NCBI GenBank assembly: GCA_022823945.1
Contig: JAJEBK010000014.1
Span: 1 to 64,000 of the forward strand
DNA: 64,000 nucleotides
From: Anaerolineae bacterium
Lineage (GTDB): Bacteria; Chloroflexota; Anaerolineae; Aggregatilineales; Phototrophicaceae
Direction of reading: 5' to 3'
Below are positions 33,878 to 39,935 of the stretch, in pieces (position 1 is the stretch's first letter; each line of letters opens with the position of its first letter). Position numbers and translations under genes: made by a program. The notes under the pieces were generated by a model, which saw nothing but the letters and a program-made list of their open reading frames with translations, made no database searches and had not been told where the DNA came from.

Positions 33878-35620
33878 CTACTCTTCGGGCGGCGCAAGCC
33901 AGCTTTCGGGGATGGCCACCTGGTGATCTTGTCCGCTCGCGGCAGCATACCAGCGCAACAGCAGCAGAGCGCGCTCAGTCATGGCAGTCGTTTGCGCCAG
34001 CACATCCAGCCGCGCATCGACCAGCAGCCCGCCACGCCCGCCAGCCAAGCGCACAGACAAGCGCCGTTTGCCCGCCACATAAACGCCGCGCCGCGTTTGC
34101 AGCCGCAATTCAATCTGCTCTGCCTGCGCCAGCGGCAAGTGCCAGACATCGCCCACGTTGATTTCCTGCTCGCTTGTTTCGCCATTTCCACGCTTGATGC
34201 GCATCGTCAAGGCCGCCTCGCCGATTGGCGCGCTGCCAGCCAGCCGAATCAAACTGCCCACATCTTGCAGAATCCCGCCATCCAGCAACTGCACAACTGC
34301 ATCGGGCACAACAGACGCCAGTCCGCCCAGCGCCGAGAGCGTGGCATGTGGGTCCGCCTTCACCTGCATCACACCCGCGCAATCCAGCGCATCCGCCAGC
34401 AGCAGCATATTCAAGGCGCCTTGGCTGCTGCCGCCCAGCGCCGCTCCTGCCAGGAAAAGCAAGCCCGGTTGTGGCGAGTCGCCCAACTGTGCCAACGCAT
34501 AGCGAAGGCCCGCCCGCAACAGCGCATATTCAATATAGCGCTCGCGCATATCCAGCGGCACATGCGTCGGACGCAAGCCCTTCTTCAACGCATATTCCGC
34601 CAGCTCGCCCTGGCGCGGATGAAAAGGCAGCCAGCCAGCCAGCTCCGCTTCTCCGACGCGCTCGAGGGTGTCGGTGGCGCTGTGTCCCAAACCAATGTCG
34701 CTGCACAGGACGCTGGTTGCCAAGCCCGCCCGCGCCAGGGTAACCATTGTGCGAGCGCTGCCCACATCGACCGCCAGCACAGCCTGCTTTTCCATGCGAG
34801 AAAAATAGGCTGCGATCGTTTCGATGCCGCGCGCTGTCGGCATAATGCCCGAATCGGATGCGGCAGCCAAGCGTTGAAAAGCGGGCAGACGCCGTTTGTG
34901 CGCGTCAAAGATTTTTGCCAACGCAGCTTGCAGCCCTTCCAGCGACAACACCCCGGCCGCGCGCCGGATATTTGGGGCAATGACCACTTCGACTTGCTGG
35001 CTGAGCATCTCGCGCACGGAAGACGCCAAACTGTTGTTGCCGGCATAGAGCACAGTCGGGCGACTGCCCAGCGGCAGCAACGACAGCGCCTGACGCACCA
35101 GCGAGAGCATCTCCAGCAGGGCAGTGCGCGCGCCGCCATCTGTGCCGCCCGCCACGATGATGAGCTGCGGGCGGCTGTGCACCAGTCGATTGAGCCGTCC
35201 GCGTGCGCCCAGCCCGTCCTGCAGATGGATTTCGGCGACAGCATCCATACCAAATGGAGCGATGGCTCGGCGCAGCCCGGCGATATCCATCTGCGGATAG
35301 AGCCCAATCAGCAGCGCGCGCAAAGGATGTCCAGCGCTGGTGGTCGTCAAGCAATAATCAATGCCGATATTGTCCGCTTGCTCTGGTCGGATGATGCGCT
35401 CGTTCGCGTCCAGCAGCCGGCGAGAACTGTGAGACTCCAGGTCGCGCATGATAGGCAAAACGCCGAAGAGCGCATCATCCTTGGGCGCGCCAATGGTGGT
35501 GCTGCCCGCGCCCTGGTTCACCAGTCGATACGCGCCATCTACTACATCGAAGAGCAAGGCGCGCGTGTTGACGCTGCCGATATCCAGAGCCAGGATCGAA
35601 CTGGGTTGCAGCGTGGTCAC
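33878..35620 (-). CDS. MutL-like ASKHA-fold ATPase (glutamate mutase L family)
   Basis: LALDIGSVNTRALLFDVVDG and VLAVDVGSARTMVTLA phosphate motifs, IVAGGTDGGARTALLE. Confidence 0.82.
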   Translation of the reverse strand: MTTLQPSSILALDIGSVNTRALLFDVVDGAYRLVNQGAGSTTIGAPKDDALFGVLPIMRDLESHSSRRLLDANERIIRPEQADNIGIDYCLTTTSAGHPLRALLIGLYPQMDIAGLRRAIAPFGMDAVAEIHLQDGLGARGRLNRLVHSRPQLIIVAGGTDGGARTALLEMLSLVRQALSLLPLGSRPTVLYAGNNSLASSVREMLSQQVEVVIAPNIRRAAGVLSLEGLQAALAKIFDAHKRRLPAFQRLAAASDSGIMPTARGIETIAAYFSRMEKQAVLAVDVGSARTMVTLARAGLATSVLCSDIGLGHSATDTLERVGEAELAGWLPFHPRQGELAEYALKKGLRPTHVPLDMRERYIEYALLRAGLRYALAQLGDSPQPGLLFLAGAALGGSSQGALNMLLLADALDCAGVMQVKADPHATLSALGGLASVVPDAVVQLLDGGILQDVGSLIRLAGSAPIGEAALTMRIKRGNGETSEQEINVGDVWHLPLAQAEQIELRLQTRRGVYVAGKRRLSVRLAGGRGGLLVDARLDVLAQTTAMTERALLLLRWYAAASGQDHQVAIPESWLAPPEE

Positions 35621-35623
35621 CGC

Positions 35624-36292
35624 TCAAGCCCCATATTGGAATAGAAAAGCGATGCGCTCGGTCAAAATCGTCAAGCTGCTCAAAATAGTCGAGGCATAAA
35701 TCGCGCCCAGCGCCGTGACGATGAGGGCTTTGCCAATGGTTCGGAATACCTTGCCCAGCCCATAGCCTCCGCCATCGCTGGCAGTGGCCTGATAATGAAA
35801 GCTGAAGAGCGCTGTCAATGTGCCCAGCAACACCAGCAGCGACTCGAGCAGCGAGCCGAGGTCGGCATCCAGCGCGGGCAGGCGAGCGGTCGCTTCCAGC
35901 AAAGGCAGCAATGTGCCTCGCAGCGCGCCAACAACGCCGACAGCCGCCCCCATCACCACAACCACCGCCAAGATGCTATTGGTCAGCCAGCCCAGCCGCG
36001 CCACCGGCTTCAGCAGCAACAGCGCCGCGAAGAGCAGCCCCGTAAAGAATATCAACTGATCCGCTTGAGCGCCCAGCGCAGTCCAACTGGTGGCGGGATT
36101 TTGAACATCTTCCCAGAAGGGCAACAGCAGGCTTTCATAACCGACAATCAGGGTGAAAGCCGCGCTCGTGCCGATGAAGATATAGACTGCGATGCGATAC
36201 AAGTGGCGTATCAACGGCAGATCGCCCAACAAATAGCTAAAGACCATGAGCGTGAGCACAAAGCTGATTAGCGCGAGGGTGTTTTCTGGCAT
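35624..36292 (-). CDS. Multi-TM membrane protein of the ASKHA cluster
   Basis: Multiple hydrophobic segments; 3-bp gap to the ATPase gene. Confidence 0.75.
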   Translation of the reverse strand: MPENTLALISFVLTLMVFSYLLGDLPLIRHLYRIAVYIFIGTSAAFTLIVGYESLLLPFWEDVQNPATSWTALGAQADQLIFFTGLLFAALLLLKPVARLGWLTNSILAVVVVMGAAVGVVGALRGTLLPLLEATARLPALDADLGSLLESLLVLLGTLTALFSFHYQATASDGGGYGLGKVFRTIGKALIVTALGAIYASTILSSLTILTERIAFLFQYGA

Positions 36293-36306
36293 CCGCTTCC
36301 GCCCCC

Positions 36307-38838: not shown

Positions 38839-38841
38839 TTC

Positions 38842-39678
38842 TCAGCGCCTCCGCCGGATCGTCCACAAGATTGCGCCGAGGACCAGGCCGACCACTGCGA
38901 CAACGGCCAGCAACTGCCCGCTGAGCCAGGGCAACTGCCCCGCCATGCCCAGAACCAGCGCCAGTGTTATCAAAATCATCAGCAGGGCGCGCCAGACATC
39001 CATGACGATCGCATCGGCTGCCGCGCGGGCATCGCCAGAAACATAGGCGGGAGCGGCGAAAAGCTCTTCGCCTATCAACGTTTCGTCAGCCATGGCATAA
39101 GCCACCGCCTGGCCCTCCAACTGGTCGCTGACTGCCAGCGTGGCTTGTCGGTTTCGCCGGGCGCTATCCAAAATCAGCCCCAATTCCGCGCCGAAACTGC
39201 CGGCCAGGATATGGGCTGGGGGGGCGTCATCGCCGATCACAGCTGTCACGCCTGCCGCATAGCCGAGCGCTCGTTTGCCTTGTGGATACCAATGCACATT
39301 GCGCATCCCGCCATCGCCCAGCCAGGCTGCAGCGACTTTCGCGTTTGCCAGCGGGATAGTTGTGGGGGCAGAAGTAGACAGCGCCGGTGGCGTATCGCCA
39401 GCGCTATTTTTTTCGATGATGTGATGAAAAAGTTCCGCGTTTGCCAGGGCGGTGGCGGTGTTGTCTTCGCCAATGCTGGCGCTGCCAAATGCCAGGTGTA
39501 AAGGGCGGTCGGCTTCAATGGCCTGGCTGCTCCAGCCGGGTATGCGCTCAAAGGCAGACACAGGGCGCAGTGTTCGCCGACTGCCCCCCCGCGACTGCAA
39601 AAACCGCGCTGTGTATATCAGCACAGCCGTCGCCAAAACAAACAGAATGCTGAGCACCTGCTGCGTTGTGACATCCAT
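38842..39678 (-). CDS. Membrane protein (possibly DUF6754-like)
   Basis: N-terminal TM, LHLAFGSASIGEDNTATALANAELFHHI, C-terminal TMs; DUF assignment is from memory and needs a search. Confidence 0.7.
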   Translation of the reverse strand: MDVTTQQVLSILFVLATAVLIYTARFLQSRGGSRRTLRPVSAFERIPGWSSQAIEADRPLHLAFGSASIGEDNTATALANAELFHHIIEKNSAGDTPPALSTSAPTTIPLANAKVAAAWLGDGGMRNVHWYPQGKRALGYAAGVTAVIGDDAPPAHILAGSFGAELGLILDSARRNRQATLAVSDQLEGQAVAYAMADETLIGEELFAAPAYVSGDARAAADAIVMDVWRALLMILITLALVLGMAGQLPWLSGQLLAVVAVVGLVLGAILWTIRRRR

Positions 39679-39683
39679 AGCTG

Positions 39684-39935
39684 CTAGTCCAGGCGCTTGT
39701 TTTCGAGCAGGTTGCGCAACTGCCGCGTGCCAGCGGGCGAATCCAGCAGGTCTGCCAATTCGCGGCAGGCATCGCCGACGCGCCACAGATTCGCCAAAGG
39801 CTGCGCAACCAGCAAGGTACTGGCCAAGATTGGCGCGGCCGGCTCCAGCGCGTCCAGCAAGCTGAGCAAGTAGGGCGCTGCCCCGCGGTCTTTGGCGCGT
39901 ATGATCAGGTCAAGAATGCTGTGCTGCTTTTGCAT
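39684..39935 (-). CDS. Small hypothetical protein, first gene of the ASKHA cluster
   Basis: MQKQHSILDLIIRAKDRGAAPYLLSLLDALEPAAPIL...; 5-bp gap to the next gene. Confidence 0.6.
   Translation of the reverse strand: MQKQHSILDLIIRAKDRGAAPYLLSLLDALEPAAPILASTLLVAQPLANLWRVGDACRELADLLDSPAGTRQLRNLLENKRLD

Follow-up and report, generated by a model that had tools for sequence, protein, structure and literature searches.

The six closely spaced genes A to F on the minus strand of the window, i.e., of the whole stretch of 64,000 nucleotides of Anaerolineae DNA analysed here, are a real and conserved gene cluster, of which the core BCDE is common to bacteria and archaea. We infer from the sequences, with a probability of about 0.5, that the products of A to F belong to a single, so far undescribed membrane complex, and that this complex is regulated by a repurposed ASKHA ATPase, the gene product F. 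The first-pass annotation had proposed an uncharacterised envelope complex, which is supported by the cluster order conserved in 41 Chloroflexota loci.

Gene layout of the cluster

The cluster occupies positions 39935-33878 on contig 35 of a draft genome (3.5 Mb, 94% complete) and consists of the following features:
A, 39684-39935, minus strand: small protein of 83 aa that opens the cluster, matched by neither Pfam nor NCBIfam
B, 38842-39678, minus strand: DUF6754 protein of 278 aa counted from the ATG (PF20539, 61.5 bits)
C, 38188-38838, minus strand: multi-TM protein of 216 aa without a Pfam family
D, 36307-38184, minus strand: protein of 625 aa with an SH3_3 match
SH3_3 domain in D, 36610-36756, minus strand: insertion at residues ~477-525 (Pfam, 34 bits)
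E, 35624-36292, minus strand: protein of 222 aa with 6-7 TM helices, without a Pfam family
F, 33878-35620, minus strand: protein of 580 aa with a GTG start, MutL-superfamily ASKHA protein (PF13941, 157 bits)

The initial description of six same-strand genes at short distances is thereby confirmed, with intergenic gaps of 3-14 nt, which from A to F are 5, 3, 3, 14, and 3 nt. Pfam names three of the six proteins, namely B (DUF6754), D (SH3_3), and F (MutL), and the Pfam scan matched no family to A, C, E, and the core of D. An Rfam scan of the window gave no match, no tRNA was found in it, and a scan for promoters and terminators gave a result at chance level. Divergent from the cluster lies a gene for a putative MscL-like mechanosensitive channel (40095-40736). 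Furthermore, a couple of ORFs at 42581-44554, a DNA methyltransferase-like ORF with a DPPYNIG motif and then a 367-aa ORF, the family of which was not recognised, is possibly a restriction-modification pair.

Conservation in Chloroflexota and the BCDE core in other phyla

DUF6754 is present in 67 of the 301 Chloroflexota genomes sampled. Using profiles that started from the proteins of the window, we compared the window and the surroundings of 40 DUF6754 matches, altogether 41 loci, in which homologues of A, B, C, D, E, and F are present 39, 41, 40, 38, 36, and 35 times, respectively, and the majority of the missing genes falls at contig ends. In nearly all of these loci, which derive from many families, the order A-B-C-D-E-F and the strand are kept, and the genes are mostly separated by short gaps or overlap. 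A is usually located 5' of B; in L116 and L122, where F is present as well, A lies directly 5' of it. Hence the expected conservation of the cluster in other genomes held, and the linkage of the six genes is far beyond chance.

A contig search with B, of which the best 80 of 409 relatives were kept, revealed among these 80 about 30 loci from other phyla that have B-C-D-E in unchanged order. According to the taxon names given for the deposited metagenome bins, the bacterial hosts belong to Bacillota/Fermentithermobacillaceae, WOR-3, Hydrothermota, Planctomycetota, Eisenbacteria, Elusimicrobia, and Oligoflexia, and the archaeal hosts to Bathyarchaeota and Culexarchaeia/Methanomethylicota. Seven loci contain a tandem BCDE-BCDE arrangement (L106, L113, L121, L126, L128, L136, and L149); in the two WOR-3 loci a gene for an ARPP-1 (PF20208) protein is located between the two sets (L128:3385-4299 and L149:7664-8578). 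Outside Chloroflexota, F was found in Bacillota (L080, L081, L087), Planctomycetota (L121, L134, L136), and Bathyarchaeota (L124). The core does not require F, since in many phyla BCDE has no F nearby, and many Chloroflexota carry F together with a further gene G but no BCDE. A and F are additions to a four-gene core BCDE.

The membrane proteins B, C, D, and E

B is a member of DUF6754 (PF20539; 61.5 bits versus a gathering score of 27), a family without known function, and a search of 5.39 million open-access papers gave none in which this family is named. The motif FGSASIGEDNTATALANAELFHHI that the first-pass annotation quoted is present in B. An AlphaFold2 model (pLDDT 86.1, pTM 0.81) predicts a TM helix, a Rossmann-like alpha/beta domain and C-terminal TM helices. 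In correction of the initial description of B as a single-pass or multi-TM protein, a putatively cytoplasmic alpha/beta domain is placed between the membrane helices. A Foldseek search of the model against the PDB gave no match at E <= 0.001, and PDB profile searches with B and E yielded nothing convincing. In several phyla, relatives of B carry an N-terminal signal-peptide-like and, by reading of the sequence, fibronectin-III-like stretch in front of the first TM helix, in which Pfam recognised no FnIII domain. Because these extensions ahead of the TM helix look exported, the DUF6754 domain of B is predicted to be cytoplasmic.

D of the window has a cytoplasmic N-terminus (residues 1-150), a TM helix (151-171) and a Rossmann-like, extracytoplasmic core at ~180-400, with the sides being predicted, followed by a Pro/Thr linker (430-465), the SH3_3 domain (477-525; 34 bits versus a gathering score of 27) and a second TM helix (597-624). 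Since an Arg-rich or zinc-ribbon segment precedes the first helix of D, the core domain is assumed to be extracytoplasmic. Charge distribution and the extensions of the relatives thus suggest opposite sides of the membrane for the domains of B and D. For a D protein of 269 aa from Bacillota, AlphaFold2 predicts a helix, a Rossmann-like domain and a helix (pLDDT 95.7); its Foldseek comparison with the PDB gave only three weak matches at E <= 0.001 with TM <= 0.33, none of them convincing, as was the result of a PDB profile search with the D core. C and E are polytopic and show no homology to redox-cofactor proteins or known pump subunits. No relationship was detectable between B and D, and likewise none between C and E.

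D proteins from outside Chloroflexota contain no SH3 domain; in nearly all of these loci they comprise 259-334 aa, mostly about 270-300. A phmmer search against all loci detected the SH3 domain in just two D proteins, that of the window and that of L032, which belongs to the same family. The SH3 domain is therefore a lineage-specific accessory insertion outside the core, and the idea of an SH3 scaffold as a defining part of the complex is not supported. Many D proteins of Chloroflexota contain a cytoplasmic tail in which zinc ribbons are combined with repeats of the peptide [DE]-[LVI]-P-[DA]-W-L-[RQ], here called PxWL peptide, in up to about 60 copies. This tail is nearly lost in the window's D, which retains the trace "DDYSWLE" and has the Pro/Thr linker and SH3 domain on the outside instead. 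All 50 loci with an extended D also have F, compared to 11 of 36 loci with a minimal D; this difference is confounded by descent, because almost every extended D belongs to Chloroflexota.

F is a MutL-superfamily protein distinct from GlmL

F belongs to the MutL superfamily (PF13941, 157 bits versus a gathering score of 27) and is the sole MutL match in the window's own genome. The motifs phosphate-1 (LDIGSVNTR), phosphate-2 (VDVGSARTM), and adenosine (GAALGG) are conserved, besides a GGTDGG motif, so that F is a predicted ASKHA ATPase with intact nucleotide-binding motifs. GlmL has been described as a chaperone that reactivates glutamate mutase (PMC4682846), and F is homologous to it, with the motifs DxGSxxT, GGTDGG, and DxGxxxT common to both. 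However, F reaches 60.2 bits against the GlmL equivalog model NF040745, which has a cut-off of 475, and even full-length relatives reach 229.7 bits at best. Against the F profile built in this analysis F scores 541.8 bits over positions 1-559. GlmL aligns only to positions 1-450 of this 559-position model and lacks the C-terminal domain of F of about 110 aa. Moreover, F forms a clade separate from GlmL with a support of 0.999-1.0, no mutase adjoins it, and its gene is embedded in a membrane cluster. A 1264-aa ORF of L162 (genome G184), which matches the MutL family in its N-terminal part at 270 bits and has a different neighbourhood, branches between GlmL and F.

The distribution of glutamate mutase leads in the same direction. 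A MutL-family match is present in 66 of the 67 DUF6754-positive Chloroflexota genomes, the sole exception (G105) having a truncated F at a contig end. The glutamate mutase GlmE (PF06368) was found above cut-off in none of these 67 genomes and in four of all 301, and the window's own genome has no PF06368 match. Genome G176, the cluster of which was recognised only by the profiles built in this analysis, contains both the cluster and glutamate mutase, and there the mutase adjoins its own, separate GlmL; a true GlmL adjoins GlmE in G089 as well. By any test made, F is thus not a predicted partner of glutamate mutase. A consistently co-encoded mutase was not found, and the view of the first-pass annotation that the label "glutamate mutase chaperone" is probably misleading is supported.

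ASKHA proteins that are encoded together with bitopic membrane proteins bearing cytoplasmic tails are also found in the PilM-PilN and FtsA-FtsN/FtsZ systems, and the tails of FtsN and PilN have been described (PMC7613929). The cluster resembles these systems in this respect and in a possible docking of peptides. However, F had no match to the FtsA or PilM families in Pfam and NCBIfam scans at E <= 1, the cluster contains no pilus or division gene, and the window's genome encodes FtsA separately. A PDB profile search with F gave nothing convincing. The comparison of F with PilM and FtsA, which the first-pass annotation had drawn, is a functional analogy.

Protein G and carboxylase genes

In most of about 40 ORFs, G, a barrel-sandwich protein of ~350 aa, is encoded 3' of F, and it follows F in most of the F loci outside Chloroflexota as well as in many Chloroflexota. 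G shows weak matches to RnfC_N and NqrA_N, with scores below the cut-offs, and a weak match to Biotin_lipoyl. In the window G is not adjacent to F, and a search without a positive control did not find it elsewhere in the 94% complete draft genome. Three archaeal loci that are related to each other have a carboxyltransferase gene (HMGL-like and PYC_OADA) immediately upstream of BCDE (L111:2115-4114, L112:6706-8586, and L132:2-460), accompanied by a biotin-carrier gene in L111 and L112.

PxWL peptides beyond protein D

The PxWL peptides are not restricted to D. Where Chloroflexota have F-G but no BCDE, the gene ahead of this pair often encodes a soluble zinc-ribbon protein with PxWL repeats resembling the D tail; in L152-L156, L159, L161, and L171, where F mostly occurs together with G, these are SLIDExxLPxWLR repeats. 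TPR proteins with the same PxWL arrays as the D tails occur in the window's class, in five genomes that have F (L202:6367-9525 of genome G005, L205, L206, L207, and L209), and in the complete genome G005 the respective gene is far from the cluster. The F-negative genome G088 encodes a TPR protein with four or five ELPDWLR-type motifs (L244:7603-8754), and its gene is located near parA/parB-like genes. In a wider comparison PxWL carriers did not differ significantly between F-positive and F-negative genomes (P ~0.16). These TPR proteins, including that of the F-negative genome, and this comparison weaken the idea that PxWL is a ligand of F only. The peptide appears to be a docking motif of broader use in Chloroflexota.

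The PxWL peptide also resembles the C-terminal peptide of FtsZ from Chloroflexota such as DDLDIPTFLRNRR, which reads NTELPAFLRKRNRRQ in the window's own genome. This likeness of short sequences is a lead only. All 101 genomes sampled gave a match to FtsA, and none of them a match to SepF. The idea that F replaces FtsA was rejected, as FtsA is present throughout these genomes.

Proposed function and alternatives

In the proposed mechanism, BCDE would form the membrane core, made up of B and D, each with a Rossmann-like alpha/beta domain flanked by membrane helices, and of the polytopic proteins C and E. Chloroflexota and some Bacillota, Planctomycetota, and Bathyarchaeota add F to this core, usually with A and G. 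F would be placed at the cytoplasmic face, and its ATP/ADP cycle would assemble, open or reset the membrane complex instead of servicing glutamate mutase. The long cytoplasmic tail of D with zinc ribbon and PxWL peptides could tether cytoplasmic partners, and the extracytoplasmic SH3 domain of the window's D probably holds the cell wall.

Alternatively, F may still be a chaperone or reactivase of another cofactor enzyme, dependent on B12 or a radical, and BCDE an independent membrane system that only shares its transcript. The homology of F to GlmL extends over most of its length, F of Bacillota reaches 419 bits against PF13941, and the F-G pairs without BCDE in other Chloroflexota would fit as well. 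However, F is strongly linked with the five other genes of the membrane cluster in many families, no mutase adjoins it in the screen for glutamate mutase, G176, which has both systems, carries a GlmL of its own for the mutase next to the latter, and the extra C-terminal domain and the separate clade set F apart, so that we regard this explanation as unlikely. Somewhat less probable still is a role of BCDE as a membrane enzyme coupled to ions or redox reactions, such as a pump-like one, in which G would act like the barrel-sandwich proteins RnfC and NqrA or like biotin carriers. The weak domain matches of G and the carboxyltransferase and biotin-carrier genes next to archaeal BCDE would fit such an enzyme, but these neighbours are confined to that archaeal group with gaps of ~100-350 nt, C and E resemble neither redox-cofactor proteins nor pump subunits, no Rnf or Nqr genes were recognised around G, and the window lacks G, as does its genome as far as searched.

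Docking of the complex to the division machinery, with the [DE][LVI]PxWL[RQ] peptides mimicking the FtsZ C-terminal motif D-[IV]-P-x-F-L-R and binding FtsA, is a rather doubtful option. The motif logo of PxWL resembles the FtsZ C-termini of Chloroflexota, FtsA, itself an ASKHA protein, binds the C-terminal peptide of FtsZ in well-studied bacteria (PMC5832921), and the sampled genomes have FtsA and lack SepF; on the other hand, the likeness of such short peptides was noticed post hoc, and the array is absent from the minimal D proteins and from D of the window. That the six genes are chance neighbours without a common function has a negligible probability and is contradicted by the gene order, the common strand, and the spacing, which are conserved in different phyla and in two domains of life. 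The preferred reading thus is one membrane complex regulated by F. An extended version of it, i.e., a BCDE machine of bacteria and archaea with an ASKHA driver or gatekeeper derived from B12-enzyme reactivases, which in Chloroflexota might be tethered by FtsZ-like peptide tails to an actin-like/tubulin-like cytoskeleton, is speculative and improbable in its entirety.

Significance

No known system has the same set of parts, and no description of the cluster was found in the open-access literature. The BCDE core is without a named function, without Pfam models for C, the D core, and E, and without a convincing solved fold for B and D, which is a substantial gap in the knowledge of the cell envelope, and many genomes list F under the misleading label "glutamate mutase". 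If F drives or gates the complex, a membrane machine would have recruited a reactivase of cofactor enzymes, and the system would be testable in cultured Chloroflexota.
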